Part shown: positions 1 through 27,173 of the stretch, one piece after another
Layout: each line of letters begins with the position of its first letter
Position numbering within the stretch: the stretch's first letter is position 1
Source of the DNA: Pseudomonadota bacterium
Lineage (GTDB): Bacteria; Pseudomonadota; Gammaproteobacteria; Xanthomonadales; Xanthomonadaceae
Assembly (NCBI GenBank): GCA_018240435.1
Contig: JAFEFT010000039.1
Coordinates: 2,759 to 40,230 of the forward strand
DNA length: 37,472 nucleotides
Reading direction: 5' to 3'
Notes under the pieces: generated by a model
The model's database searches: none
Seen by the model: the letters and a program-made list of their open reading frames with translations, nothing else
What the model was told of the DNA's origin: nothing
Program-made: the position numbers and the translations under genes

Positions 1-872
1 TTGATCGGGTCGATCTCGGTGACCACGACACGGGCACCGTAGGCGCGCAGCGAATGCGCCGAGCCCTTGCCGACGTCGCCGTAGCCGCACACCACCGCGA
101 CCTTGCCGGCGAGCATCACGTCCATCGCGCGCTTCAGGCCGTCGGCCAGCGACTCGCGGCAGCCGTAGAGGTTGTCGAACTTCGACTTGGTCACCGAATC
201 GTTGACGTTGATCGCCGGCACCAGCAGCTTGCCGTCCTGCGCGAGCTGGTAGAGGCGGTGCACGCCGGTGGTGGTTTCCTCGGAGACGCCCTTCCAGTCC
301 TTGACGACACCGTGCCAGAAGCCCGGGCGCTCTTTCGCGACGCGCTTGAGCAGGTCCTTGATGACCTGTTCCTCGTGGTTGCCCGACGCGGTGTTGACCC
401 AGTCCGAACCGTTCTCGAGCTCGAAACCTTTGTGAATCAGCAAGGTCACGTCGCCGCCGTCGTCGACCACCAGCTGCGGGCCTTGGCCGTTCGGGAAGCT
501 CAGCGCGGCGAGCGTGCAATCCCAGTATTCCTCCAGCGTCTCGCCCTTCCACGCGAACACCGGGGTGCCCGACGCGGCGATCGCGGCGGCGGCATGATCT
601 TGCGTCGAAAAAATGTTGCACGAGGCCCAGCGCACCTGCGCGCCGAGATCGCGCAGCGTTTCGATCAGCACCGCGGTCTGGATGGTCATGTGCAGCGAGC
701 CGGTCACGCGCACGCCGGCGAGCGGCTTGGCGGGTGCGTACTTGCGGCGGATCGACATCAGCCCCGGCATCTCGTGCTCGGCGATGTCGATTTCCTTGCG
801 GCCCCAGTCGGCGAGCGACAGATCGGCGACCTTGTGGTCGTGGGCGGGGATGGGCTTGGCGACAGCGTTCAT
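1..872 (-). CDS. ahcY: Adenosylhomocysteinase, 3' part cut by the window edge
   Basis: Hydrolyses S-adenosylhomocysteine to adenosine and homocysteine, which removes the inhibitory product of SAM-dependent methylation. The frame is open from ATG 872-870 to the window edge, giving about 290 residues; the C-terminal part lies outside. Recognisable stretches are the N-terminal [15 protein letters not shown] and [18 protein letters not shown]-like blocks, a [12 protein letters not shown]-like region, the [20 protein letters not shown] block, and the NAD-binding start [20 protein letters not shown]. An AGGAG-like Shine-Dalgarno (GGAG, 880-883 on the complement) sits 8 nt before the start. The gene is transcribed leftwards and preceded by an SAH riboswitch, so expression should rise when SAH accumulates. 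Identification is secure; only the downstream partner genes are unseen. Confidence 0.97.
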
Positions 873-930: not shown

Positions 931-949
931 ACGGCGCGCGGATCGTGAC

Positions 950-1168
950 GGGCGCGGTTGTGAAAACCGTCATGGCCACGCCGAGCCTGTTCCCGGAGAT
1001 TTCATCGTCGTCGCCAACCGTGCGTGGCGGGCCTTCCACGACCGTGCGTGGCGGACCTCCCACAACCGTTCGCGGTGAGCCCATCAAGAACCGTTCGTGG
1101 TGAGCCTGTCGAACCATGAACGGCTGCCTCGACACGACGACAAAACCGGGATTGCAGCGCCCCTCGGC
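950..1168 (-). promoter_or_regulatory. SAH riboswitch with greatly enlarged P2 arm, upstream of ahcY
   Basis: Read on the minus strand, the leader holds the conserved SAH-riboswitch 5' core GAGGGGCGCTGCAA (around 1152-1166) and the 3' core CAGGCTCGGC (980-989). All expected helices can be drawn. P1 is GCCGAG (1163-1168) with CTCGGC (980-985). P2 is TCCCGG (1146-1151) with CCGGGA (991-996), and it continues as GTCGTCG (1135-1141) with CGACGAC (1007-1013). The P4 pseudoknot is GGGCGC (1157-1162) with GCGCCC (950-955). The family normally has a P2 loop of only a few to some tens of nucleotides. Here about 149 nt lie inside P2, filled by tandem repeats. Known members of the class sit before ahcY and switch expression on when SAH binds. 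No U-tract terminator is seen, so control may be at translation. Confidence 0.85.
1016..1123. repeat. Four tandem ~24-bp repeats plus inverted end, inside the SAH riboswitch
   Basis: Units begin at 1016, 1040, 1064 and 1089, each starting (A/G)ACCGT(G/T)CG(T/C)GG. The last unit has the widespread intergenic form CCGTTCGTGGTGAGCCTGTC and is closed by the inverted end ACCATGAACGG (1113-1123), so it can fold as a hairpin. The units diverge progressively leftwards. The whole block sits within the P2 arm of the ahcY riboswitch. Confidence 0.8.
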
Positions 1169-1182
1169 GGGGAACCTCCGGA

Positions 1183-1310: not shown

Positions 1311-3078
1311 TCACGAATGCGTCGCCTTGCGGCGCTCGCGGAAGCCTTGCGGCGGGCCATCGGCGCCAGGGTCGGTCGCCGGGTCGTGGCGCACCACGCG
1401 GTTGCGACCTTCGCGTTTGGCGCGGTACAGGGCGCCGTCGGCGTGGGCGAGCAGGTGTTGCAGTTCGTAGCCGGAGACGCGGGCGGCGGCGATGCCGAAG
1501 CTGGCGCTGAGCGGGAAGCCGGGGCTGTCGGGGGCGTCGCCCAGGGCGACGATCTGCGCGCGCATCGCTTCGGCGATGTCGGCGGCGCGTTCGGGCACGG
1601 TGTCCGGCAGCAGGATGGCGAATTCCTCGCCGCCCATTCGCCCGAACAGGTCCACCGAGCGCAGGTGGCGCTGGCAGGCGGCCACCGCGGCCAGCAGGGC
1701 GCTGTCGCCGGCGGCGTGGCCGTGGCTGTCGTTGATCTGCTTGAAATGGTCCAGGTCGATGGCGATCAGGCAAGCCTCGCGCAGCGATTTGGCGCAATAG
1801 CCCAGCTCGGCGCGGACGCGTTCGATGAAATGCTGGCGGTTGAGGATGCCGGTCAGGCCGTCGCGCTGCGCCAGTTTCTGGAACTTGCGCTCCGATCGCT
1901 TGGTGCGCCAGGCGTACAGGCCGATCGAGCCGAGCACGACCAGCAGCAGGGCGATGGCCAGTTCGATCTCGGTGCGGCTGCGGCGATCGACGGTGCGTTG
2001 CAGTTCCAGCACCTGGTTGCGCTGGCGCAGTGTCACCAGTTGCGCTTTTTTCTCCTGCACCTGCTGGTGGATTTGCTGGTAGGCCAGGGCGCGCGCGCTG
2101 AGGTCGTTGAGGTGGCCTTTTTCGGCGTCGGCGTAGCGGATGTACCAGTGCAGGGCGTCCGCTGCATCGCCTTTGGTTTGCGCAATTTCGTACAGCACCT
2201 GGCTGGCGGCGATCAATGCGACCGAGTTCGATCCGGTCTTGGCGGCCTGCAAGGCCAGCGCGCGCGCGCGTTCGCCATTGCCCTGTGCCCAGGCGATCCG
2301 CGCCAGCGTGGCCTGGACTTCTTCGCTCAGTGCCGGGTAGCCGATCCGGTCGATTTCGGCCAGATGCCGTTGCAGGGCGGCATCAGCGGCGACGGGCTGC
2401 TTGTGGTCGAGGTAGCGCTCGGCGGCGAGCACGCGGATGCTGTTGGCGTACAAGCCGTCGTTGGCTTGCGTGCAGCGCGCCAGCGCTTCCGGGTAGCCGG
2501 CCTCGAACGCGCCATCGGCGCGCTGCGACAGGGCGAGCATGCGGTAGTACTGCGCCTGGCAGGCGATGGCGTCGGAGTCGGCGGCGGCCAGCATTTGATC
2601 CGCATAGCGCAGGGCGAGCTCGATCTGGCCGGCTTGCGCGTAGAGCGAGGCGGCGTTGGACTGGATGCGTTGCCGGGTCGGCGGGTCGCGCACGGCGGGC
2701 AGGGCCGCGACCAGGCCATCGAGCAGGGCGTAGGCTTCCGCGTAGCGCGTCGCATTAGCCAGCACGGTGACCATCGAGCCGGTCGCGCGCAGGCGCAGAC
2801 AGCTGACGAAGGATCCGCAACGAAGCTTCGTCGTTGCCCTGATACCCGGCTTCCCAGCCGTGCAGGTAATGCAGCAGATCCTGCTGCGAGGGAGTCAGGG
2901 CGGTGGGATCGGCGTCGAGGCGATGCAGCAGCTCGACGAAGCGGGCGTGGTCGGCGGTCTTGATCCGGTCGGCCTGTTGCAGCAGGCCGGCTGGCGGCTC
3001 GGCGGCGACCGCCGCGGCCAGCGGCAACCACAGCGCCAGCACGATGCCAGTGACGGTACGCGCCGGTCGCGTGCTCAT
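1311..3078 (-). pseudogene. TPR-TM-GGDEF diguanylate cyclase, frameshifted (copy A)
   Basis: Homologue of the intact cyclase at 3786-5579. ATG 3078 opens a signal peptide (hydrophobic core GIVLALWLPLAAAVAA) and the motif ADRIKTADHARFVELLHRLD. This frame reads to about 2800 and then stops at about 2755. Homology resumes in another frame at LRLRATGSMVTVL (near 2800-2765) and continues through helical TPR-like repeats, a membrane segment (ELAIALLLVVLGSIGLYAW) and a complete GGDEF domain. The domain has GGEEF and an RSVD inhibitory site five residues upstream, both typical of an active, product-regulated enzyme. Compared with copy B, roughly 10 residues are missing at the junction, so a small out-of-frame deletion is likely. 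Either the gene is broken, or a shortened protein starts at ATG 2774 without the signal peptide, or the assembly has an error. Confidence 0.8.
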
Positions 3079-3140
3079 GGCGTGGTGGCCGCCAGCCCAG
3101 AGCCGGTGATTTTCTCCACGTCCTGTGAAAAAGGTCGCGC

Positions 3141-3169
3141 GGCCAGTCCGGTACACGCCCGGACTGGCC
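3141..3169 (-). terminator. 11-bp perfect hairpin between precursor A and cyclase A
   Basis: GGCCAGTCCGG and CCGGACTGGCC pair around a 7-nt loop. On the minus strand a TTTTT run follows 8 nt after the stem, too far for a textbook intrinsic terminator. It could attenuate read-through from the precursor gene into the cyclase gene. Confidence 0.35.
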
Positions 3170-3251
3170 TTGCTGGGTCAATCGATGGCGTGATCAATCC
3201 AGAGCGGGCCATCCATGGCCAGCCATCGAGGCTGAAGAAAAACATCGCATC

Positions 3252-3533
3252 TCAGGCAATGCAAGCATGGGGCTGGCGGCGGACATCCTCGTCCTCGCAA
3301 TCCGGCACATCGTCCTCGTCTTCGTCGTCCTTGCCCGTAGTTATGTTCTTGTGCGCGATGGTGCGGCTGCCGCTGAGGGCTTCCAGCGCGGCACGGTCGA
3401 AGTTGTGGATCGCCGCGCGCGCCAGCGGATCGAGCGCGGCTTCGTCCATGATCCGATCCAGCGCGCCGGAGTCGGCGTCATGCCATTGCGCGTTGGCACC
3501 GACGCGTTGCAGGAATTCGGTGATGCAGGTCAT
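3252..3533 (-). CDS. Borosin precursor-like peptide A, BBD-type helical leader with acidic tail
   Basis: Encodes 93 residues from ATG 3533, chosen because a GGGG-type Shine-Dalgarno lies 8-10 nt upstream and the start matches that of copy B. Residues 1-55 form a predicted helical domain (FLQRVGANA, ALDRIMDEAALDP, AAIHNFDRAALEALSG). They align without a gap to the peptide at 5602-5889, with 17 identities in 68 by my count. The helical part resembles the borosin-binding domain of SonA-type precursors. After it come SRTIAHKNITTG, then a run of Asp/Glu (KDDEDEDD) and an Arg/His/Cys tail. If it is a methyltransferase substrate, the core is the segment around residues 56-67. That segment is more polar than usual, so this copy could be diverged or non-substrate. 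Confidence 0.65.
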   Translation of the reverse strand: MTCITEFLQRVGANAQWHDADSGALDRIMDEAALDPLARAAIHNFDRAALEALSGSRTIAHKNITTGKDDEDEDDVPDCEDEDVRRQPHACIA

Positions 3534-3785
3534 GGTTTTCCCCAAGGTTGAACCGGACGACGGTACCGGCAGCCGTTCGCGCCGAGCCGCTGCGTCCGGG
3601 CGGCTCCTGCCGGGGGGCGACGATAGCGCAATCGAGGCGATTCGTCGGCGGCGGTGCATCTGCATCGTGTTCGCCAACGGCGAGCGCCTGCCGATGCAGG
3701 TCAGCGGGCAGGTGGTGGGCCAGAGAAGGTTTTTCAGGGCTGCCGGTGGTGCGGTGGCGCGTGCCGCCGTTCCGCGATGGCGATG

Positions 3786-5579
3786 CTACCCGTGCCGCCG
3801 CTCCGGCACGCCCGGTGGCGGGCCATCGCTGACGAGCGCAACGGTGCCGTGTGCGATCACCCGATCGCGGCCACTGCGCTTGGCCTGATACAGCGCGTCG
3901 TCGGCCTGCGCCAGCAGTTGCGTCAGGTCGTAGCCGGCGGCGCGCGCCGAGGCGATGCCGAAGCTGGCTGTCACCGCAAACGCCGGCCCGCCGTCAGAAC
4001 CTTGCAGCGCCGCAATTTGCGCCCGCATCATCTCGGCGATATCGGCGGCGCGGGCGGGAATGGTGTCGGGTAGCAGGATGCCAAACTCTTCGCCGCCGAG
4101 CCGGCCGAAGATGTCCACCGAGCGCAGATGTTTTTGACAAGCGGCCACCGCGGCCTTCAATGCGACATCGCCGGCGGCGTGACCGTGGGTATCGTTGATC
4201 TGCTTGAAGTGATCGAGATCGAACGAAATCAAACTGGCCTCTCGCAACGACTTTCGGCAATAGCGTAATTCGGCCTGCGCGCACTCGATGAAGTATTGCC
4301 GATTGTGGATTTCGGTCAGGCCGTCGCGCTGCGCGAGCTTCTGGAACTTCAACTGCGAGCGCCGCGTCCGCAGCGCATACAGGCCGAGTGAGCCGAGCAG
4401 CACCAGCAGCAAGGCGACGCCCAATCGCACCGCCAGCAGACTTTTGGCATCGACTTCGCGCTTGAGCTTGAGCAACTGATTTTGCTGATTGAGGGCGGCG
4501 ATTTCAGCCTTGCGCGCGGCCACTTGCTGATGGACTTGCTGGTAGGCCAGCGCGCGCGCGCTGACGTCGCTCAGGTAGCCTTTGTCGGCGGCGGCGAATT
4601 TTTCGTGCCAATCGAGCGCCGCCACGGCGTCGCCGCGATGCTTGGCATCGCGATAGAGCACGCCGAAAGCATCGGCGGCGGCTTCGGTGCTCTGGTTTTT
4701 CGGCACTTCCGAAGCCGCGCGCTGGGCGTAGCTCCGCGCCTGCTCGGCATCGCCTGCCTTTTCTTCCGCCAACGCCAGCACCGCGTCCACTTCCGAGGTG
4801 GTGGCCGGATAGTGGGTGGCCTGAGTTTGCTCGTAGTGCTGTCGCAGTATCGCGATCGCGTCTTGCGTGCGGCCATGATCGAGGTAGTAGCGAGCCGCTT
4901 GGGAGCGCGTGATCGCCGCGTAGATTGGCTCGCCGATGTTTTCGCAGGCGGTGATCGTGTTTTCGAAGTCCTGATCCGCCAGCGTGACTGATTTGTCCTG
5001 CCGCAACGCCAGTACCCGCAGCGCGCCGCCCTTGCACGGGCCGTGAGAGGTCGGGTCGGCAGCGATATATTTATTCGCGAATGACAATCCCAGCTCGTAC
5101 TGCCCCGCCTGACTGAACAGCATCGAAGCCACGCCCAGAGCCTGCGCACGCGCATCCGGATCGGTGGCCTGTGGCAGCACGTCGAGCACTTTGCTCAATC
5201 GCGTATAGGCTTCGAGGTTGCGCGATGCGATCGTCAACAGGTTGACAGAGGTCACGCCGGCGCGCAGGCGAACAGTGGCATCTTGCTGGCTGTCGATGAT
5301 TGCGTCGAATGCCGGCATCGCCTTGGCGAAATCGCCGGAAAACGCCAGTTGCCAGGCATGCAGGTATTGCAGATAACTGCGTTGCTGCGGCGTGAGCGAC
5401 GCGTGCTCGCCGTCGAGTTGCGTCAGGATGCTCTGGAAGGTGCGATTGTCGGAGGTCTTGATCGCATCGGCGCGCTTGAGCAGGGCGGCGACATCGTCCG
5501 CCAATGCGACCGGCGCGTATGCCGCCACCGCGAGCGCGATGGCGAGCGTAATTGCGCGCTGGCAAGAGCGAAAGCGCAT
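3786..5579 (-). CDS. Diguanylate cyclase with secreted TPR sensor region (copy B)
   Basis: A 597-residue membrane enzyme predicted to make cyclic di-GMP from two GTP. Residues 1-27 are a signal peptide ending in ALA. Residues 30-345 are helical repeat (TPR-like) and would lie in the periplasm. A short coiled coil (about 350-378) precedes one membrane helix (382-403), and the GGDEF domain fills 415-575 in the cytoplasm. GGEEF is at 495-499 and the RxxD inhibitory site (RSVD) at 486-489, so both catalysis and product inhibition are expected. The start ATG 5579 is 22 nt after the stop of precursor B, so the two are almost surely co-transcribed. The pair repeats as precursor A plus cyclase A downstream. 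What the TPR region senses is unknown. Confidence 0.9.
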   Translation of the reverse strand: MRFRSCQRAITLAIALAVAAYAPVALADDVAALLKRADAIKTSDNRTFQSILTQLDGEHASLTPQQRSYLQYLHAWQLAFSGDFAKAMPAFDAIIDSQQDATVRLRAGVTSVNLLTIASRNLEAYTRLSKVLDVLPQATDPDARAQALGVASMLFSQAGQYELGLSFANKYIAADPTSHGPCKGGALRVLALRQDKSVTLADQDFENTITACENIGEPIYAAITRSQAARYYLDHGRTQDAIAILRQHYEQTQATHYPATTSEVDAVLALAEEKAGDAEQARSYAQRAASEVPKNQSTEAAADAFGVLYRDAKHRGDAVAALDWHEKFAAADKGYLSDVSARALAYQQVHQQVAARKAEIAALNQQNQLLKLKREVDAKSLLAVRLGVALLLVLLGSLGLYALRTRRSQLKFQKLAQRDGLTEIHNRQYFIECAQAELRYCRKSLREASLISFDLDHFKQINDTHGHAAGDVALKAAVAACQKHLRSVDIFGRLGGEEFGILLPDTIPARAADIAEMMRAQIAALQGSDGGPAFAVTASFGIASARAAGYDLTQLLAQADDALYQAKRSGRDRVIAHGTVALVSDGPPPGVPERRHG

Positions 5580-5601
5580 CGCGACGACGCCAGTTGTCGC
5601 C

Positions 5602-5889
5602 CTAGAGCGCGCCGATTTCGGCCAGCGCCATCCGGATTTCGTCGTCGTCGCGCTGCGGTTCGTCTGGTTTGTCGTCCTCGTCTTCCTTCACCGGGAACAG
5701 CAAACAGGCAACGACGTGCTTCGCGCCCAGCGCGAGGGGAAGCGATCGACCGTCAGCGCGCGCCAATGCCGCTTGTTCGAATGGCGACAGACCTCGTGCA
5801 TTCATCACAGTCTGCAAGGTATTTGCGTCGGCATGGCGGAGGCTGGCGTCCTGACCCATTGTCTCGAGAAACGCGATCGCATCGTGCAT
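5602..5889 (-). CDS. Borosin precursor-like peptide B, BBD-type leader and hydrophobic core
   Basis: Encodes 95 residues from ATG 5889. The N-terminal part (1-55) has the pattern AIAFLETMGQDASLRHAD, then TLQTVMNARGLSP and LARADGRSLPLALG. This three-helix pattern with GQDA, GLS and a Gly end matches the borosin-binding domain of SonA of Shewanella, as I recall that sequence. The following segment KHVVACLLFPV (57-67) is hydrophobic and beta-branched, as expected for a backbone-N-methylated core. It is followed by KEDEDDKPDE and a second acidic stretch. The gene lies in the same direction as, and 187 nt below, the methyltransferase-acetyltransferase pair, and 22 nt above cyclase B. The role as substrate is inferred from this context and from similarity; it is not proven. 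Confidence 0.75.
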   Translation of the reverse strand: MHDAIAFLETMGQDASLRHADANTLQTVMNARGLSPFEQAALARADGRSLPLALGAKHVVACLLFPVKEDEDDKPDEPQRDDDEIRMALAEIGAL

Positions 5890-6076
5890 GGTCGTGATCC
5901 GTGTGGGTTGTGGGAAATGTTCGCGGGGGTCGCAGTGGCGCCAGCGCCGTACTCCCCGTCGCGACGCATCGCCCATGGTGCACTCGCGATGGCGGCTCGA
6001 CAAGGGCGATGGTCGCCTCGATGGGTCGAAATTCGTGACTGCCCAAGCGGTTTGCAGCATTCGCGGGTCGCACGAC

Positions 6077-6640
6077 TCACGAGGGTTGGCGGGCGTGCCA
6101 CGCCAGCCATGTTTGCCGATGCGCGGTGCGGATGCGCAAATCCGGATCGCCTGATGCGGCCATCGCCGCCCGATCCAACTCGAAGCCGATGCCGCGAACA
6201 GCGCGATCGGCGGCCTTGTTGGCCGACGGAAACCGGCCTTCGACGGCATCGACCGGCAAGCACGCAAACAAGCGTGCGACGAATCCGGTCAGGATTTCCG
6301 ATGGATAACCTTTGCCATGCGCATGGCGATCGAGAACCAGGCCGATTTCGAGGCGCGCCGCCATCGAGTCGAATGCGTGGCAGCCGACGAAGCCCAGGGT
6401 TCGGTCGGTCGCCGCTTCGACGATCGCCAGCAACAGCACGCGCAAGGGATTGGATTCGTGCGAGCGCAGCAGGTTCGCAAAAGCGCGGGTGGCTACCTGT
6501 GCGGTCATTGGTGGCGCGATCAGCCGCATGGTGGCATCGTCGGTATACAGCGCGCAGAACATCGCCTGATCCTCGGCATGCACGGGCCGAACGCAAAGTC
6601 GTTGGGTGGCGAATGCAAAATCGGCTGTTTCCGCGCTCAT
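6077..6640 (-). CDS. GNAT-family N-acetyltransferase
   Basis: A 187-residue protein of the RimJ/RimL-like GNAT fold, which moves an acetyl group from acetyl-CoA to an amine. Seen are the N-terminal TQRLCVRPVHAED strand, the LEIGLVLDRHAHGKGYPSEIL block (97-117) with the HGKGY acetyl-CoA loop at 108-112, and the C-terminal ANKAADRAVRGIGFE motif typical of the family. Its ATG (6640-6638) overlaps the stop of the upstream methyltransferase (ATGA), which implies translational coupling. Because of this coupling it may modify the same peptide or confer self-protection, but a substrate cannot be read from sequence. Confidence 0.88.
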   Translation of the reverse strand: MSAETADFAFATQRLCVRPVHAEDQAMFCALYTDDATMRLIAPPMTAQVATRAFANLLRSHESNPLRVLLLAIVEAATDRTLGFVGCHAFDSMAARLEIGLVLDRHAHGKGYPSEILTGFVARLFACLPVDAVEGRFPSANKAADRAVRGIGFELDRAAMAASGDPDLRIRTAHRQTWLAWHARQPS

Positions 6641-7452
6641 CCGCCCATTTTCTCCAGCACATCGAGCACGCTCAGTCGCGCGCGAATTTCACGATCTGGT
6701 TTCAGGCGGCGGGCCGGCGGCACGACCAGCGTGTGCTCTTGCGTTACCTCGGCATCGACCAGGTCGCGCAATGGCAGACGACGAACCTGCGCACGTTCGA
6801 TAGGCAACGTCGCGCCGCGATATAGGATGACTGGGTGATCGAGCGGATAGTCGCGCGCCAGCCGATCCACCAGCACCTGTCGATACGCCGCGGCGGTGCC
6901 GAGCTTGGCCAGCGACTGGTCGCCGACCACGCCGACCTGCCACACGATCAGGTAGGCGCCAGGGTCGATGAGGCGCTCATACAGCAGCAACTGGCTGGCC
7001 TCGTAGTGCTGGCAACCGCAGCGGCCGGGATCGATACCGAGGTCGGCGTACAGGCAATCCTCGGCCGAGATACCCGGCTCCATGCGCGCATCGAAACCTT
7101 CGCTGCGGGCAATTTCGATGGCTTTGTGCGAGGGCCAGACGAACACGCCGGGATGGCCGTAGAAGGCGGCGACGACCTGCTTGCCGGCGCGCACTTCGGT
7201 CAACATCGCCTCGACCATCTCGCGATAGGTCTGCATCCGCGATTTGCCCTCGCGGTAGTGCGGCTGCAGGCTGCGCACGTCGGGGTTCATGCCGGCGATC
7301 CATTGCTCGACGATGCCGTCGGACATGCCGGCGAACACCACGTCGGCCTGTTCGATGTAGCTGCGCGCCAGCGGGCTCAGGTGCGAGCCGAGGGTCATGC
7401 CGACGCCGACGCAGGTCAGGCTGCCGGGGCGGGTGGGGCTGGGGTCGGGCAC
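6637..7452 (-). CDS. Split-borosin peptide-backbone alpha-N-methyltransferase (SonM/OphMA type)
   Basis: A SAM-dependent methyltransferase of the tetrapyrrole-methylase fold, 271 residues from GTG 7452. That start gives a GAG ribosome-binding site and a length near SonM. The SAM-site block GSLTCVGVGMTLGSHLSPLA is at 10-29. The loop KSRMQTYREM (70-79) carries the Arg and Tyr that are catalytic in OphMA. FYGHPGVFVWPSH (97-109), MEPGISAEDCLYADLGIDP (124-142) and HYEASQLLLY (149-158) are near-signature segments of borosin enzymes and distinguish it from cobalamin or 16S rRNA (RsmI) methylases. The enzyme has no fused precursor, so it is the split type acting on a separate peptide. Two candidate substrates are encoded downstream on the same strand. 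Confidence 0.88.
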   Translation of the reverse strand: MPDPSPTRPGSLTCVGVGMTLGSHLSPLARSYIEQADVVFAGMSDGIVEQWIAGMNPDVRSLQPHYREGKSRMQTYREMVEAMLTEVRAGKQVVAAFYGHPGVFVWPSHKAIEIARSEGFDARMEPGISAEDCLYADLGIDPGRCGCQHYEASQLLLYERLIDPGAYLIVWQVGVVGDQSLAKLGTAAAYRQVLVDRLARDYPLDHPVILYRGATLPIERAQVRRLPLRDLVDAEVTQEHTLVVPPARRLKPDREIRARLSVLDVLEKMGG

Positions 7453-18465: not shown

Positions 18466-21309
18466 TCAAAACGTGTATTGCCAGTCGGCGTACCAGAATC
18501 GACCCGGAACGTCGTAACTCGGATCGAAGGAGTTCGCCGTCGTGATCGCGACCGGTGGCGCGAGGTTGAAGGCGTTGTTCACGCCCAGGCGCAATGCCAT
18601 GTGGGTGTTCGGCTTCCAGCTCAGGTACAGGTCGGTATAGGTGCGGGCGCCGATGACGTGGATCGGATCGCCGCCCAGGCGAGGATCGGGCGGGGCCGCG
18701 CTGCACAGGTTCGGGTAGCCGGAGTACACGAACCAGCTGCAGTCTTCGTGGAGTGCCGAAAAATAGCGCCAGCGTGCGCCCGCGCCCCAGCGGTCGCGTT
18801 GCCAATCCAGCGACAGCACCGAACGCCAACGCCAGGTGACATCGCCAGGGTTGTCGTACAGGCCCGCCGTCGAGACCGGCGGTGCGCCCTTGGGAAGCTC
18901 GACCACGAAGCGTGTCAGATACGACGTATCCCAGCGCAGGCGGAATTCGCCGAGCCGGGTTTGCCGGCGATAGCCGATCCCGAGGTCGTAGCCCTCGAGG
19001 CTGAAGCGGCCGTTGTTGTGCAAGCGTGCGTCGACCGAGGTCAGCCAACCGGTCGCCGGGTCGCGGGTCTGGTACTGGCAGGCGCTGGCGATGCCCTGTT
19101 CGTAGCACAGATCGAGCAGGTAGTCGGCACCGATGGCGTCGATGGTGTCGCGCAGGTCGATATGCCACCAGTCCAGCGAAGCGTCCAGGCCGGCGATGGC
19201 GTGCGGACTCCACACCACCCCCAAGCTGCGGTTGCGCGATCGCTCCGGTTGCAGGGTCGGGTTGGAGCCGGACAAAATCACCGGCCCGGCCAGCGGGTCG
19301 ATGCCGCCGGCAGGCACGCCGGCGGCCCGGCATCGCGTCGCGACCACTCCGGTGAAATCCACCACGCAAGGGTCGAATGCGAGGAAATCCACGCCGGCTT
19401 GTTTCGCGGTGATCGACGAGTACATCTCATCCATCGACGGCGCGCGAAAGCCCGTCGACCATGCGCCGCGCACCAGCCAGTCCGCGGTTGGACGCCAACT
19501 CAACATGGCCTTCGGGTTGGTGGTCGAGCCGAAGTTGTCGTAGTGCGAATAGCGCGCAGCCAGATCCAGATCCAGCGCGTGGGCGAAGCGTTGGTTCTTC
19601 AGCAGTGGCAAGCTCAATTCGACATAGCCCTCGCCGATGCGGCTGCGACCGCTCACCGGCTGGTACGCCGCACCGCCGAAATCGAAGGTCTGGTCGGTGA
19701 GCAAGGGGTCGAGCCGGACATCGGCATGCTCGCTGCGGTACTCCAGCCCTGCCGCGAGGCGCGCCGGGCCGGCCGGCAGCGCGAATATCGTGCCGGAGAT
19801 GCCGAGGTTGAGGTCGCGCAGGCTGCGCGTCTGGCGAACGGCGGCATTGGCGGTGACGTAGTCGTACATCGCATCGGTGAAGCCGTTCTGGCCATGCAGG
19901 ATGTCCAGCGGCACGCAGCCGGAAATGGGTGCGGCCAGCGTTCCGCAACGCAAGCTGCCGCCGTCGACGAACGTCGGGCCCAGGCCGAGGCCGAGATGCT
20001 GCAAGTTGACGCCGCCGGTGATGCTGTCGCGCTCGTTGCTGCGCCCGGCGATCAGCCCCAGCTGCCAATCGAACGGTCGCTGGCCGAGGTTGAGCACGCC
20101 ATCGAGCGACAACGACAGATAGGCCGTCGTCACGTTTTCATCGAACACGCGCGGGCGGATCAGCGGCCGGAACTGGAAGAACGTGACCGGCAGGCCGAAT
20201 GTGTTGAAGGCGTTGTCGGCGGAAATTTCGTCGGCGAAATCGGCATTCCAGCCGAGGATCTTTGGCGCCAGTTGCTGCTGGGAATCGCGATGGTGCACGA
20301 GCAAGTTGGCGTGGAAGGTGGTGTCGGCGCCAAGGTCGCGGTAAGCGGTGACGAACGCAGTCAGGCGCCGATAGGGTGTGCGCAGGTAGTTTTGCGGGGC
20401 GAAGTTGTAGCCGTCGGCATGCGGGTCGAACACGCGGTAGTCGCCGAGCGTCGGATCCCACGTCAGTTGTCCTTTGCTGCCGTTCGGCAATCGGTTGCCA
20501 AAAGGACCGAAGCCGAATCGGCCATTCGGGCCGCCGCGCGATGCGCCCAGACCGTTGGCGCTGTCGTTCGCCGGCAGGCCGAAAATCGGCACTGCCGAAA
20601 TCGCCCGATCGCCGGCCATGATCGGCTTCTGGTCGTCCACGTTGAGGTTGATGGCGATACCGCCGCGATCGCCCTGGTGGCCCCAGGTGCCATCGACGGT
20701 GCGACGTTGCCCGTCGCCGTACTCGCTGGTGGCGTAGTGCGCATTCAACTCGGCACCATCGAAATGATCGCGGGTGATGATGTTGACGACGCCGGCGATC
20801 GCGTCCGAGCCGTAGATGGCCGAGGCGCCGTCGGTGAGGATTTCCACGCGCTGGACGATCGCCACCGGGATGGTGGCGACGTCGATGCCGCCGTCGATCG
20901 AGGTCACGAAACGCCGGCCGTTGAGCAGCACGAGAGTGCGGTTGGAGCCGAGACTGCGCAGGCTGACACGGGTTTCGCCCCGAATGCCGCCGCCGGCGCC
21001 TTCGCTGGCGTTGTTCCAGTCGCTGTTGATCGCCGAGCCGTGGATCGGCAACTGCTGGAGGATATCGCCCAGATTGGTCAATCCGGTCTTGAGCAGATCG
21101 CTGCGATCCAGCACCAGCACCGGTTGCGCGGTCTCGCGCTGGGAGCGGCGGATGTGGCTGCCGGTGACCGTCACCGTCGGCATCAACTTGGCGGGTGGTG
21201 ATGCGGATGCGGGCGGGTTGTCGTCGGCGGCGAGCGCGAGCGCGGGCAGCAGGGCGAAGACGATGGCGACACCGAGCAGGTGGCGACGGCGGCACGGGTG
21301 GACATTCAT
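18466..21309 (-). CDS. TonB-dependent outer-membrane receptor
   Basis: 947 residues from ATG 21309. A signal peptide (VAIVFALLPALALA) is followed by a proline-rich stretch and the plug domain, with VTVTGSHIRRSQRETAQPVLVLDRSDL, SLRSLGSNRTLVLLNGRRF and RVEILTDGASAIYGSDAIAGVVNIITR. The barrel contains RWSTGFRAPSMDEMYS-like and NPTLQPERSRNRSLGVVWSP blocks and ends in Phe (DWQYTF), as outer-membrane barrels do. The start codon overlaps the kinase stop (ATGA), so the receptor is translated with a kinase and sigma-like factors. The ligand cannot be told from sequence; the plug resembles those of broad nutrient or peptide receptors in this order. Confidence 0.93.
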   Translation of the reverse strand: MNVHPCRRRHLLGVAIVFALLPALALAADDNPPASASPPAKLMPTVTVTGSHIRRSQRETAQPVLVLDRSDLLKTGLTNLGDILQQLPIHGSAINSDWNNASEGAGGGIRGETRVSLRSLGSNRTLVLLNGRRFVTSIDGGIDVATIPVAIVQRVEILTDGASAIYGSDAIAGVVNIITRDHFDGAELNAHYATSEYGDGQRRTVDGTWGHQGDRGGIAINLNVDDQKPIMAGDRAISAVPIFGLPANDSANGLGASRGGPNGRFGFGPFGNRLPNGSKGQLTWDPTLGDYRVFDPHADGYNFAPQNYLRTPYRRLTAFVTAYRDLGADTTFHANLLVHHRDSQQQLAPKILGWNADFADEISADNAFNTFGLPVTFFQFRPLIRPRVFDENVTTAYLSLSLDGVLNLGQRPFDWQLGLIAGRSNERDSITGGVNLQHLGLGLGPTFVDGGSLRCGTLAAPISGCVPLDILHGQNGFTDAMYDYVTANAAVRQTRSLRDLNLGISGTIFALPAGPARLAAGLEYRSEHADVRLDPLLTDQTFDFGGAAYQPVSGRSRIGEGYVELSLPLLKNQRFAHALDLDLAARYSHYDNFGSTTNPKAMLSWRPTADWLVRGAWSTGFRAPSMDEMYSSITAKQAGVDFLAFDPCVVDFTGVVATRCRAAGVPAGGIDPLAGPVILSGSNPTLQPERSRNRSLGVVWSPHAIAGLDASLDWWHIDLRDTIDAIGADYLLDLCYEQGIASACQYQTRDPATGWLTSVDARLHNNGRFSLEGYDLGIGYRRQTRLGEFRLRWDTSYLTRFVVELPKGAPPVSTAGLYDNPGDVTWRWRSVLSLDWQRDRWGAGARWRYFSALHEDCSWFVYSGYPNLCSAAPPDPRLGGDPIHVIGARTYTDLYLSWKPNTHMALRLGVNNAFNLAPPVAITTANSFDPSYDVPGRFWYADWQYTF

Positions 21310-24300
21310 GGCGGTGCTCCACGGTTGACGGACGCCGGTTGCGACGCAGAACCCACGGGGTCGAGCGTGATGGCGACCACGCTCAGATTGCCTTCCGAGA
21401 GGATGCTGGCAGTGACCCGCAGCTCCAGCCCAGCCAGTTCGCGCGTGGGCTCCGGATTGGCCAGGTCGGCGGCATACAGTGCCGCCGACGCGCCACCGTG
21501 GGCCACGATCTGCGATTCGCCGTAGGCGCCAACCCAAGCCAGGCGGGTGTGGCCGTCGTCGCGGCCCGGGATTGCCTCTTCGGCGCTGCCCAGGCGCAGC
21601 GGCAGATCGCGGAAACCACCGTCGCGGTAGCGCAGGCGAACCTGGCCGACCACGCCGTCGGCGTTATTGATATTGCTGGTGATCGCGCCCAGCACGTGCA
21701 GCCGTGCGTATGTGCCGGGCGCCACGTCCACCGTCAGGCGGTCGCCGCGCGCGCTGGACGGACCACCGGCGACGATCGGCCCGCCACGCAGCTCGACCAC
21801 GCCACGCAGGTCGTAGTCGACGCCGAGCAGGCGCTGCACGCCCAGCGGCAGCACGCACAGGTTGCCCAGTCTGCGTCTGCGTAGCAGCTGGGTCGAGAGC
21901 CCCACGCGGTGCAACGGCGCCGTGAACCATGCGTCCAGATCGAGCAGGCGGGCAGGAGTGTCGGGCAAGCGTGGCGGAATGGCGTCTGCCGGCGGCGTGC
22001 ACGACCATGCCGACGGCGGTGCCTGCGCCGATTTCGGGTTGGTGCTCGCGAACGCGAGCTCGCGCTGCCGCCAGGCCGCACGCAGTGCGGGTGATGGCGG
22101 GACGAACGCAGTGCCCGGTGCCGGCGCGGTCTGCGTGGCGGTGGCGGCGACCACGGCGACATCGCGTGTGTCCGGAGTGAGATCCCAGAGCAGCCAGCGG
22201 CCATAGGTGGTGCGCACCAGCAAGCGCCCACCGTCCGGCGCAAACGCCATTTGCGCGATCCGTTCTGAGATGTCCGTCGGGACCTGTAGCGGTGAGCCGA
22301 TCAACTGGCCACTGACCATGTCGATCAACAGCACGCCGTTCGCAAACGCCTGTGCGAGCAGGCGACCGTCCGCGCTCAACGCCTGGGCGCGGCCGGGCGT
22401 GGCGTTCGGGCGTGGCAGTTCGACCGGCTGACTGCTGCCGTCGCGACCCACCAACAGGCTGGCGCCGTACTCGGCGGCCGATCCGCCGCGGTCACCGAGG
22501 ATCGCGATCCGGCCGTCCGTCGGGCGCAACAGCAGGCTGTGCGCGTTTGCCAGAATCTTTTGGCTGTGCAGCAGGCGGCCATCCGCCGACCAGCGCTGCA
22601 GGACATTGACGACTTCGTCCTGGGCGGCCACGAACTGCACGACGCCGCCGCTCACCGGATCGAACACGGCGTGCTCGACGATGTGCGCGGCGTCCGGCGC
22701 GGGGAAGCGACGCAACGGGCGCGACAGGTCGGAAATCGCGTACAGCCGGCTGCCATCCTCTGCGGGAACCAGCAGGCGACTGCCGTCGGCGCTGAGTTCG
22801 GCGGCGTAGAACGGCATCGATCCACCCGGCCCCAACGGCCGCCCGCTGCGCAGATCCCAGGCCTGCAGGAAACTGGTCTCCGCGTCCATTCCGCCGGCCA
22901 GAGTCCAGCGCACCACCGCAGTGCGGCCATCGGCGCCGAGCAACAGGCCCGTCGGGGTTGCCGGCAACTCGATCGGGGCGATCCGGTCGCGGTCTGCGCG
23001 CCAGTCCAGCACATGCAGGTAATGCCCGCTGCTGGCGACCAGGTCGCGACCGCTGGCGTCCAGCGCGGCAAAGCCGACCGGTTGCCGAAGCACGATGCGC
23101 GGCGACAGCAAGGCCCCGGTCATCGCGTCCTGCACCCACAGCTGCCGGCCGGCGACGCCGACCAGGTGCTTGCCGTCGAAGCGCAAGACGTCCTCGCGCT
23201 GGTTCGCAGCCCGTGCATCGCGCAGCGGCGACGCAGGCAAGCGCCACAGCTTCAGGCTGCCGTCCATGGCGCCGGTGACGAGCAATCGCTGGCGCAGATC
23301 GAAAGCGCTGGCAAAACGTTCCACGATGGCGTTGTGGCTGATCTCCGGTGCCAGCTGCACCGGGTTGCCGGCCAGCGACGCGTTCGGGTCGACGGTGCGC
23401 CCACCCGCCTGCCACATCGTGACCTTGTCCCATTCCATCAGCAGTGCGGTACAGGTGTCGGTAGCACCATCGCATTCGAACTGGTGGCCAGTGACCGGTG
23501 TCGGGCGGGTCACGAGGTACTGGGGGATGCCATCTGGCATCGAGAACACAAGGAAGTCGCCACCATTTTCGCTCACCGCCAGGCGTTTGCCGTCGGGGCT
23601 GAAGCTGATCCAGTAGGCCTGTTCGGACAGGTTCGCGCTCAACTCACGCGTCTTGCCGCTGTCGGCATCGACCAACAGCGTTGCGCCATCGTCGCGTCCC
23701 AGCGCCAGGGTGCGCCCGTCCGGGCTGGCCGCCCACGCCATGAAGCGCCCATCGGCGCGGCCGGTGGTGATGGTGGCGCGCACCCGCAGGCTCGCCGGAT
23801 CGAGGATGCGCACGCCGTCGGCCTGGTAATACCGGGCGATGAAATGCGCGTGCGGGGCGAGCAGCCAGCCGGGACGGAACTGATCGAGCGGGGTATCGCC
23901 GGCGACCGGCGACAGCGGTTTCCAGCCATCGGCCTGCCAGAGCCGGTAGTGGCGCAGGTCGGTATCGAACAGCAGCACCGCGTGGCCGTCGTCGCTCCAG
24001 GTCTCGCTGGAAACGCGGTCTTCGCCGGGCACGTGGGTCTGCGCACCATCGGCCAGCGCCAGCCGCCATTCGTGCAGCCCGCCGGGGCGGATCTGCAGCA
24101 TGTTCCAGTGCCGCGACACCAGCAGCCAGCGGCCATCGGGGGTGAAGCGCAGCCGACGCAATTGGCCGTCGAGGGCCTCGCCCTTGTGCATCGCCAACTT
24201 CACCCGCCAGAGCTGGCGGTGGCTGGCGAGGTCGTACAGTGCGACCGTGTACGGCTGCAATCCCAGCGCGAGGTAACGCGCATCCGGGCTGATCGCCAGC

Positions 24301-25694
24301 ACGTGGATCGGCGCGCCGACATCGAATGCGTCGAACAGGGCGGGCGTCGTCGCCTGCACAATCGCCAGATAACGGCGTTCGAAGGCTTCCGCGTCCTTGT
24401 CGCCGGCAGTGGTCTGTTCGCGCAGGTTGGTGGCGAGGAAGGGCAGAGTTTCGTAGTGGCGCTGCTGCTCGAACAAGCGGTGCGCGGTCTCGTGGCGTTG
24501 CGCCCACAGGTTGGTGCGGGCGATCCGCGCATTGCCTTCGGCGCGCCGCCATTGCAAGGTGCTGGCGACCAGGCCGATCGCCAGCGCGAGGATCGATGCG
24601 GCGACTGCGGCGGCCAGTCGCGGCTCACGGTGCGCCCAGCGACCGAGCCGTTGCAGGGTGTTGAGCTGGCGAACGCTGACCGGCCGGCCGTCGATGAAAC
24701 GACCCAGATCCTCGGCCAGTTCGTGCGCATTGGGATAGCGGTCGGACGGCGTTTTCGCCAGACACTTCTGGCAGATCGCTTCCAGATCGCCCGGGACGTT
24801 GCGTTGTCCGCGCAAGCTGGGCACCTGGTCGTGCACGACGCGTGCGATGGTGTCCTGCGGCGTGTTGCCAAGGAACGGCGGCCTGCCGCTCAGCAGTTCG
24901 TAGAGGATCGCGCCCAGCCCGTAAATGTCGGTTGCCGGGCTGAGTTTGTGCGATTTGAGCTGGGCCTGTTCGGGCGCCATGTACGAGGGTGTGCCGGAGA
25001 CCTCGTCGAGGTCGGCGGCAAACGATTCGTCCAGCCGCCGGGCGAGACCGAAATCGGCGACCAGTGGCTCGCCGCGATCGTCGAGCAGCACGTTCGCCGG
25101 CTTGAGGTCCAGATGCAGCACGCCGAGCCGGTGCGCGTAATCGAGTGCGTCGGCGAGCTTGCGCAACAGCCGCGCCGCGTCAAGGGCGCGGTACGGGCCG
25201 TTCTTCATCAGCAGCTGCGCCAGCGACGGGCCGCGCACGAGTTGCATCGAGAAGAAATTGAGGTAGTCGCGGCTGCCGATCTCGTAGATCGCCACGATGT
25301 TCGGATGCTGCATGCGGGCGGCGCTTTGCGCTTCTTGCTTGAAGCGAGCGATGAAATCGTTCGATGCCCAGGGCCCGGCCGCGAGCAGCTTGAGCGCAAC
25401 CTCCCGTTCCAGCCCGTGTTGATGGGCGCGGTACACCACGCCCATGCCGCCCTGGCCGATCTTTTCGAGCAATTCGTAGTCGCCGAACCGGCGCTGTTGC
25501 GGGTCGTCGAGGTCGAGTTCGAGCGCCTCCGGCGGCAACAGAGCCAGATGCCGCGAGGCGAGTGTTCCCGATCCGACCTCGCCGCTGAAATCGGCGAACG
25601 CCAGCCGCGCCAAGGCGGTGTCATGGCCCGGCAGCGCCATCGTGATCTGCGCGGAAATGTCGGCCGAGGATGGATCGCGACCGGGGGTGTTCAT
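21306..25694 (-). CDS. Ser/Thr protein kinase with transmembrane helix and propeller-like C-terminal half
   Basis: 1462 residues. The Hanks-type kinase domain (72-335) has the glycine loop GQGGMGVVY (80-88), ATP Lys102 (VALK), Glu121, DFG 214-216 and SGTPSYMAPEQ. The catalytic loop reads HLDLKPAN (194-201), Leu in place of the usual Arg; Asp196 is kept, so activity is still expected. A membrane helix follows at about 359-380. From about 420 to 1230 come repeated SPDGR(T/W)LALG-like strands, typical of WD40/beta-propeller repeats, and a final beta-sandwich-like domain of unclear family. The start overlaps the stop of the sigma-like gene upstream (ATGA) and the stop overlaps the receptor start. 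The periplasmic propeller could sense a ligand. Confidence 0.92.
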   Translation of the reverse strand: MNTPGRDPSSADISAQITMALPGHDTALARLAFADFSGEVGSGTLASRHLALLPPEALELDLDDPQQRRFGDYELLEKIGQGGMGVVYRAHQHGLEREVALKLLAAGPWASNDFIARFKQEAQSAARMQHPNIVAIYEIGSRDYLNFFSMQLVRGPSLAQLLMKNGPYRALDAARLLRKLADALDYAHRLGVLHLDLKPANVLLDDRGEPLVADFGLARRLDESFAADLDEVSGTPSYMAPEQAQLKSHKLSPATDIYGLGAILYELLSGRPPFLGNTPQDTIARVVHDQVPSLRGQRNVPGDLEAICQKCLAKTPSDRYPNAHELAEDLGRFIDGRPVSVRQLNTLQRLGRWAHREPRLAAAVAASILALAIGLVASTLQWRRAEGNARIARTNLWAQRHETAHRLFEQQRHYETLPFLATNLREQTTAGDKDAEAFERRYLAIVQATTPALFDAFDVGAPIHVLAISPDARYLALGLQPYTVALYDLASHRQLWRVKLAMHKGEALDGQLRRLRFTPDGRWLLVSRHWNMLQIRPGGLHEWRLALADGAQTHVPGEDRVSSETWSDDGHAVLLFDTDLRHYRLWQADGWKPLSPVAGDTPLDQFRPGWLLAPHAHFIARYYQADGVRILDPASLRVRATITTGRADGRFMAWAASPDGRTLALGRDDGATLLVDADSGKTRELSANLSEQAYWISFSPDGKRLAVSENGGDFLVFSMPDGIPQYLVTRPTPVTGHQFECDGATDTCTALLMEWDKVTMWQAGGRTVDPNASLAGNPVQLAPEISHNAIVERFASAFDLRQRLLVTGAMDGSLKLWRLPASPLRDARAANQREDVLRFDGKHLVGVAGRQLWVQDAMTGALLSPRIVLRQPVGFAALDASGRDLVASSGHYLHVLDWRADRDRIAPIELPATPTGLLLGADGRTAVVRWTLAGGMDAETSFLQAWDLRSGRPLGPGGSMPFYAAELSADGSRLLVPAEDGSRLYAISDLSRPLRRFPAPDAAHIVEHAVFDPVSGGVVQFVAAQDEVVNVLQRWSADGRLLHSQKILANAHSLLLRPTDGRIAILGDRGGSAAEYGASLLVGRDGSSQPVELPRPNATPGRAQALSADGRLLAQAFANGVLLIDMVSGQLIGSPLQVPTDISERIAQMAFAPDGGRLLVRTTYGRWLLWDLTPDTRDVAVVAATATQTAPAPGTAFVPPSPALRAAWRQRELAFASTNPKSAQAPPSAWSCTPPADAIPPRLPDTPARLLDLDAWFTAPLHRVGLSTQLLRRRRLGNLCVLPLGVQRLLGVDYDLRGVVELRGGPIVAGGPSSARGDRLTVDVAPGTYARLHVLGAITSNINNADGVVGQVRLRYRDGGFRDLPLRLGSAEEAIPGRDDGHTRLAWVGAYGESQIVAHGGASAALYAADLANPEPTRELAGLELRVTASILSEGNLSVVAITLDPVGSASQPASVNRGAPP

Positions 25695-26489: not shown

Positions 26490-27173
26490 CTACAGCGTGT
26501 CGCGCAGCAACATCAACTCGTGCTCCAGCGTTGGCGTGTCGGCTACCGTATGCAGCAATTCCTCGCGAATGCGCTCGCGCAGGCGCGTGCGCAGGCGTTT
26601 GACGGTTACCGCGACGCCATTGGCGGTCATTCCCAAGGCCTTGCCCGCGCGTTCGTATTCGCCGGGGTCGGGTGGTTCGAGCAGGAAGGGCTGCAACGCG
26701 TCGAACAGTCGGCGCCGGTCAGCGGCATCGCATTGCGCGCGCAGCCCGTCCAGGGCCCGCCGCAACACCGCCAGCGCCCAAGCGCGATTGAACGCATGTT
26801 CCGGATCCTCGCGTTCTGGGGCGACGATCGATTCCAGGGCCGCGGCGTCGTGCATCGCACCGCCGCCACGTTTGCCGGCAGCGGCGGTGACCGCTTGGCT
26901 GTGCAGGAAATTGCGCAACGCCGCCAGCAGATAGGGCCGGAACCCGCCGCGCAACGGATCGGCGCGGGCAGGGAGGTTGTTTTCCAGCAAGTGCAGGAAG
27001 AACGCCTGCGCGAGATCGTCGCTGTCGCCAGCGTGGCGGCCGTGATGGCGGATGTACGCGATCACCGGCTGCCGATAGGCACGGCACAGCCAGTCCAGCG
27101 CCGCGCGCCCGTCCGCATCGTCGACGCGTGCCTGCTGAATCAGACTCCAGCGTGTGGTCGCGAAACCGCTCAT
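26490..27173 (-). CDS. ECF-like RNA polymerase sigma factor (first of pair)
   Basis: 227 residues from ATG 27173 behind GGGGAGG. Starts FATTRWSLIQQA, as in a group of ECF-type factors best known from planctomycetes and some proteobacteria. Region 2 is clear (YIRHHGRHAGDSDDLAQAFFLHLLE, 53-77) and region 4 ends in GMTANGVAVTVKRLRTRLRERIRE, a good helix-turn-helix. No anti-sigma gene is adjacent; instead a related sigma-like gene, a kinase and a receptor follow on the same strand. In known kinase-linked ECF groups, phosphorylation replaces an anti-sigma factor, so that is an attractive inference here. Confidence 0.85.
   Translation of the reverse strand: MSGFATTRWSLIQQARVDDADGRAALDWLCRAYRQPVIAYIRHHGRHAGDSDDLAQAFFLHLLENNLPARADPLRGGFRPYLLAALRNFLHSQAVTAAAGKRGGGAMHDAAALESIVAPEREDPEHAFNRAWALAVLRRALDGLRAQCDAADRRRLFDALQPFLLEPPDPGEYERAGKALGMTANGVAVTVKRLRTRLRERIREELLHTVADTPTLEHELMLLRDTL

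Follow-up and report, generated by a model that had tools for sequence, protein, structure and literature searches.

The window analysed here is a 37,472-nucleotide stretch of a Xanthomonadaceae genome (contig JAFEFT010000039.1). On its minus strand, from 7452 down to 1311, it carries a methyltransferase, a GNAT-family acetyltransferase, precursor 1, cyclase 1, precursor 2 and cyclase 2, in that order (Table 1). The locus is almost certainly a split borosin: the sequence of the enzyme and its active-site residues agree in this with the profile and the fold of the precursors. The start of the GNAT gene overlaps the end of the methyltransferase gene by four bases, cyclase 1 begins 22 bases past the end of precursor 1, and a TPR-GGDEF gene lies downstream of each of the two short precursor genes. 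An initial annotation of this DNA had treated 7452–1311 as one biosynthetic or regulatory unit, and the recurrence of this gene set in many genera supports that proposal.

The enzyme, its precursors and the cyclases

The initial annotation had described a tetrapyrrole-methylase-fold enzyme with the segments YGHPGVF, MEPGISAEDCLYADLGIDP and KSRMQTYREM, of borosin rather than cobalamin or RsmI type, and had suggested a search against SonM. All three segments are present in the 271-residue methyltransferase frame, and among solved structures the best match is indeed SonM (E 3.3e-77, 263 bits; 122 of 253 aligned positions identical, 48%). Matches to OphMA/dbOphMA-type enzymes follow at E about 1e-55 to 1e-57, and the best corrin match, a cobalt-precorrin-4 methylase, reaches E 0.002 and 21 bits. 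Residues Y66, R72, Y76 and Y98 align with SonM Y58, R67, Y71 and Y93, mutants of which are reported to have lowered activity (PMC8429565). All four core-binding or active-site residues are kept in 81 of 81 aligned rows, the window counted in. A 45-row tree places the window enzyme together with those of Rhodanobacter and Dyella; the supported clade that holds them has 36 rows and is separate from SonM. Both enzyme kinds occur in Shewanella: among 77 genomes a SonM-type enzyme (at least 64% identical to SonM) is found in 66, a second type (48 to 54%) in 25, and both in 24. The second type is that of the window in G060 (locus L056), the sole genome followed.

The Pfam TP_methylase fold of the enzyme and its weak NCBIfam corrin-family matches, far below the cut-offs, would fit a tetrapyrrole (cobalamin/siroheme) or RsmI-type methylase beside unrelated short genes. 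We consider this exceedingly improbable in view of the gap in score between SonM and the corrin enzyme and of the SonA-like precursors that adjoin the enzyme gene; an identity as a corrin, siroheme or RsmI methylase was rejected on the scores. By analogy with SonM, the window enzyme very probably N-methylates its precursors. The enzyme chemistry and the parts of the locus are of an already known kind.

The two short downstream proteins had been described as having a SonA-like helical leader and a separate tail. They read as proteins of 95 and 93 residues and are SonA-like precursors, as judged from sequence and a structural model for precursor 1 and from sequence for precursor 2. These short open reading frames (ORFs) are more than chance, because precursor 1 alone finds relatives of SonA type beside methyltransferase genes in many loci and genera. 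A profile of 39 precursors, both from the window included, retrieves SonA as the first seven sequences in the PDB (best E 2.6e-6, over the leader); phmmer with precursor 1 alone gave no match in the PDB, and SonA was reached by the profile only. The AlphaFold model of precursor 1 (mean pLDDT, predicted local distance difference test, 80.4) has five helices within residues 3–53, and the SonA leader is likewise described with five helices (PMC8429565). When this model was searched with Foldseek, the top 17 rows were all SonA chains, but the best E was 0.14 and none reached 0.001, so the values are not significant singly and the reading rests on the consistency of the list.

The leader of precursor 1 aligns to SonA without gaps, and its residues 63 and 65 lie opposite the SonA sites L63 and I65 (sites from PMC8429565). 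Extending this alignment gives a predicted core at residues 57–69 (KHVVACLLFPVKE), with the hydrophobic stretch VVACLLFPV behind the leader. Precursor 2 was placed by the leader profile alone (E 8e-16); its core, TIAHKNIT, is less hydrophobic than that of precursor 1 and is without Cys and Pro. A locus of the same genus, L032, holds a precursor with this core type. Every testable borosin feature was found in the window, with the core of precursor 2 as the one doubtful case. Among 79 precursors paired with a cyclase (see below), 69 have a Cys within residues 51–75, 53 have a Cys followed after three residues by Pro, and 72 have a net acidic tail.

Some precursors depart from this pattern. Lysine-rich basic tails were seen in Steroidobacter, Povalibacter and a genome of the same genus as the window (L039:10423-10854, L040:10473-10904 and L033:452-2227). 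The precursor at L152:4902-5336 carries a Cys-x-x-x-Thr-Pro-Glu unit four times, a repeat that helps to mark the core, and repeated core-like units occur also at L096:10516-10800 and L034:9953-10219.

Cyclase 1 matches Pfam GGDEF (E 8e-41) and also TPR, and has hydrophobic segments at residues 8–28 and 376–405. By a simple hydropathy scan, its TPR domain is predicted to be periplasmic, between the N-terminal hydrophobic segment and the membrane helix that precedes the GGDEF domain. A GGEEF motif is present in both window cyclases, in all 79 cyclases paired with a precursor, 74 of which also have RxxD; the TPR-GGDEF proteins are, by domain and motif, probable diguanylate cyclases. The neighbouring diguanylate cyclases and GNAT of the initial annotation are both present, with one amendment: cyclase 2 forms no single open frame. 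The N-terminal portion is in ORF 2755-3156, and the remainder, the 3' piece with GGEEF and RSVD, is in ORF 1311-2774 in another frame; in the window this gene is either frameshifted, and so broken, or mis-assembled.

Table 1. Features of the split-borosin locus, with window positions
Feature	Positions	Strand	Basis
Split-borosin alpha-N-methyltransferase, SonM type, 271 residues, GTG start	6637..7452	-	SonM match, active-site residues, tree
GNAT-family acetyltransferase, possible tailoring enzyme	6077..6640	-	Pfam Acetyltransf_3, E 1.9e-19
Precursor 1, 95 residues: SonA-like five-helix leader, hydrophobic core, acidic tail	5602..5889	-	Profile, AlphaFold model, Foldseek
Predicted core of precursor 1, residues 57-69	5683..5721	-	Gapless leader alignment to SonA, extended to the core by inference
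Cyclase 1, 597 residues: signal segment, TPR domain, membrane helix, GGDEF domain with GGEEF	3786..5579	-	Pfam, hydropathy, TPR model
Precursor 2, 93 residues: SonA-like leader, different core type, acidic tail	3252..3533	-	Leader profile
Cyclase 2, split over two frames	1311..3080 (5' end about 3080)	-	Both pieces match cyclase 1

Pairing of precursors and cyclases across genomes

We examined the pairing in two sets. The first comprises 80 loci collected with patterns from the window enzyme (97 confirmed, 80 kept) and is biased towards the methyltransferase; the second comprises whole-genome searches of 60 related genomes and is free of that sampling bias, the cyclase search scoring at most 22 candidates per genome and possibly missing weaker copies. 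In the 80 loci and the window, a precursor lies directly upstream of 79 of 86 full TPR-GGDEF genes. All but one of these 79 are at most 56 bases from the TPR-GGDEF gene or overlap it, the overlaps arising from over-long frames, and the remaining one belongs to the split cyclase 2 of the window. For four of the other seven TPR-GGDEF genes (L093, L103, L109 and L110) a short gene resembling a precursor was recognised, either from a near-threshold score or on visual inspection; the last three lack one.

The 60 genomes give the same picture. A TPR-GGDEF gene follows within 1200 bases at 39 of 40 precursor places, the fortieth being in G031, where GGDEF domain and methyltransferase form one frame; read from the cyclase side, a precursor lies no more than 700 bases upstream at 36 of 45 TPR-GGDEF places. 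Such a frame joining TPR-GGDEF and borosin methyltransferase was found in three genomes (L030:40-2274 in G031, L139:754-3696 in G018 and L155:1441-3954 in G008). Of the 60 genomes, 32 carry the methyltransferase (E <1e-50). The cyclase (E 1e-40 or better) was found in 30 of these 32 and in none of the 28 genomes without the methyltransferase (Fisher's p 8e-15, relatedness ignored). In a class-wide sample of 274 genomes, with at most seven TPR candidates scored in each and weaker copies possibly missed, the TPR family (E 1e-20) appears in the window's own genome only.

The pairing extends to SonA itself. In each of the 12 SonM loci read (L184–L195) a cyclase of this kind comes after SonA, and in L196, where the enzyme matches SonM at 100% identity, a gene for a 596-residue TPR-GGDEF protein begins immediately behind the stop codon of SonA. 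On the evidence of sequence, the cyclases belong to the borosin system in this branch, and the link between precursor and cyclase is strong and general. Of 81 methyltransferase loci, 72 have a same-strand GNAT gene no more than 1.5 kb away; neighbours of both kinds, cyclase and GNAT, are the norm in this group. The initial annotation had called borosins with such neighbours little described; GGDEF is already named in a figure legend on borosin architectures (PMC11395268). A literature search for a link between borosins and diguanylate cyclases found nothing beyond that legend, the main borosin surveys lying outside its scope; a term search of the main text of PMC8429565 gave no GGDEF. We make no claim to have been first to notice the link.

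Precursor–cyclase pairs are found at a distance from the enzyme gene too. The window's genome has a single methyltransferase, and it holds a third precursor–cyclase pair on another contig (L141:1029-3292), with no methyltransferase in the 6 kb read, as well as a TPR-GGDEF gene without a visible precursor (L142). In G055 a pair (L143) lies about 87 kb from its own enzyme gene. G004 (L148) and a Rhodanobacter genome (L183) each have a pair on a separate contig as well, but these contigs are short and the cases weaker. Inside the genus, cyclase type goes with core type for the most part, some of the cyclases compared being partial: pair 2 of the window and a pair of L032 are reciprocal best cyclase matches (63%), and the cyclases of the L032b and G004:C10 pairs both match L141 best, the core type being the same. 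An exception is cyclase 1, which is closest to the L141 cyclase (60%), yet has a paired core that resembles that of G004:C43 (52%).

A proposed coupling to c-di-GMP signalling

We propose that this is a split-borosin locus coupled to cyclic dimeric GMP (c-di-GMP) signalling, with the product and the cyclase acting in one pathway in either direction, and we put the probability of this reading at roughly 0.8. In one form of it, the enzyme would bind each precursor through the leader and, still in the cytoplasm, methylate amides along the backbone of the core, as SonM suggests; a protease, and perhaps the GNAT too, would finish the peptide; and the finished peptide would reach the periplasm, where the TPR domain of the adjacently encoded cyclase may bind it and so alter c-di-GMP synthesis. 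That the mature peptide is the ligand of its neighbouring cyclase is a tentative idea. Equally tentative is its extension to the branch as a whole, SonA included, in which split borosins would serve Gram-negative bacteria as peptide signals N-methylated on the backbone; every precursor would be paired with a c-di-GMP-making, periplasmic TPR receptor of its own, and a single methyltransferase would serve several pairs per genome.

The direction could also be the reverse, with the cyclase sensing another periplasmic cue and c-di-GMP controlling the making or release of a borosin that is an ordinary bioactive or a metal- or redox-related peptide. Two points speak for this alternative: the linkage data give no direction, and once phylogeny is allowed for, core and TPR domain do not vary together. 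Against it, one methyltransferase may serve several pairs, with a separate cyclase for each precursor even far from the enzyme gene, an arrangement for which a single upstream regulator would have no need. We regard the reverse direction as conceivable, at somewhat less than even odds.

Distance-matrix partial correlations were calculated from the 79 pairs, of which 78 were entered and 66 were left after near-duplicates were dropped. For core and TPR domain the partial r was 0.08 (66 pairs), 0.11 (62), 0.08 (47) and 0.13 (55), values reached by 138, 50, 207 and 33 of 1000 permutations, respectively; with the leader also held fixed it was -0.10. The co-evolution test does not support core–TPR matching. 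Leader and methyltransferase, known binding partners, gave r of only 0.03 to 0.07, which indicates that the distance test has little power or is biased. Leader and TPR distances correlated at r 0.45 to 0.57 when GGDEF and methyltransferase were controlled for, and at 0.45 with GNAT added. This correlation would suit a further alternative, in which the whole precursor, through its leader, partners the TPR domain and so regulates the cyclase as a small protein. The control of leader against GNAT also gave 0.43, however, and much of the leader–TPR signal therefore reflects shared fast evolution; moreover, the TPR domain is predicted to be periplasmic, whereas the precursors read open straight into the leader, with no signal peptide evident on visual inspection. 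We consider this alternative unlikely.

A number of observations weigh against the proposed coupling. The core distances follow the TPR domain little beyond phylogeny, as given above, and correlate more strongly with GGDEF (0.29 to 0.37). Nine of the 45 TPR-GGDEF places in the 60 genomes have no precursor within 700 bases; among these, a looser profile detects a precursor for G008 and G042, G004:C34 is at a contig end, and no precursor was seen in the upstream small frames of the G000:C22, G017 and G029 cyclases. Two other genomes of the class-wide sample have a distant methyltransferase (38% identity) and no such cyclase, and cyclase 2 of the window is itself split over two frames. The gene set shared across genera contains no protease or exporter. 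Finally, the TPR model of cyclase 1 (pLDDT 94.4) resembles in fold the peptide-pheromone receptors Rap, NprR and AimR, which speaks for the coupling, but TPR proteins of other function (APPBP2, APC/C subunits and MalT) score equal to or above these receptors.

To our knowledge, no settled biological role is known for any bacterial split borosin. The near-constant pairing of precursor and membrane cyclase, found also after SonA, makes this question open to a direct gene-deletion test. If the proposed coupling is true, backbone-methylated peptides would join the inputs of c-di-GMP signalling, and a receptor candidate would be named for many orphan precursors.

Related systems, maturation and neighbouring features

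The closest characterised system is SonM/SonA, the type IV split borosin of Shewanella oneidensis (PMC8429565), which shares with the window the separate enzyme and precursor, the four residues, the five-helix leader with a hydrophobic core behind it and, at the locus with the 100% SonM match, a TPR-GGDEF gene directly after SonA. The window differs in its 48% identity, its separate clade, its two precursors each with a cyclase, its GNAT and its longer acidic tails. Fungal OphMA and dbOphMA have a homologous methyltransferase, but there it is fused, and the window precursor is a separate protein. The RRNPP receptors (Rap, NprR and AimR) are cytoplasmic. The window cyclase would fit this type in its TPR fold and neighbouring peptide gene, although TPR proteins of other function score equally; its TPR domain is predicted to be periplasmic and is joined to GGDEF, and the likeness is one of possible working only, not of membership.

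As to maturation, gene clusters shared among loci besides the four gene types are lineage-bound. A pepsin-like protein (Pfam Asp) lies in the fetched flank of 25 of loci L001–L110, for example at L079:6545-8254, and in several Shewanella loci, L079 among them, its gene stops at the GNAT start or close to it. Six of the 60 relatives have this protein, all of them with the methyltransferase, and it was not found in the window's genome. This pepsin-like aspartic protease is a candidate maturation protease and may belong with the shewasins. Shewasin D is a pepsin-like enzyme described as mainly cytoplasmic (PMC4814920). The GNAT of the window had no match in the PDB at E 1e-3.

An Rfam scan inside the borosin locus, with E up to 1, found no riboswitch. 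Outside the locus, a match to the S-adenosylhomocysteine (SAH) riboswitch at 943-1171 (minus strand; score 35.4 bits, gathering score 37; stretched to 229 bases by an insert) lies upstream of an S-adenosylhomocysteine hydrolase gene (3-872, minus strand). Farther along the window, 21306-25694 (minus strand) encodes a 1462-residue protein in which a kinase domain is combined with WD40-like repeats. Upstream of it, beyond a single unassigned gene, lies a gene for a sigma-70 region 2 protein (26490-27173, minus strand).

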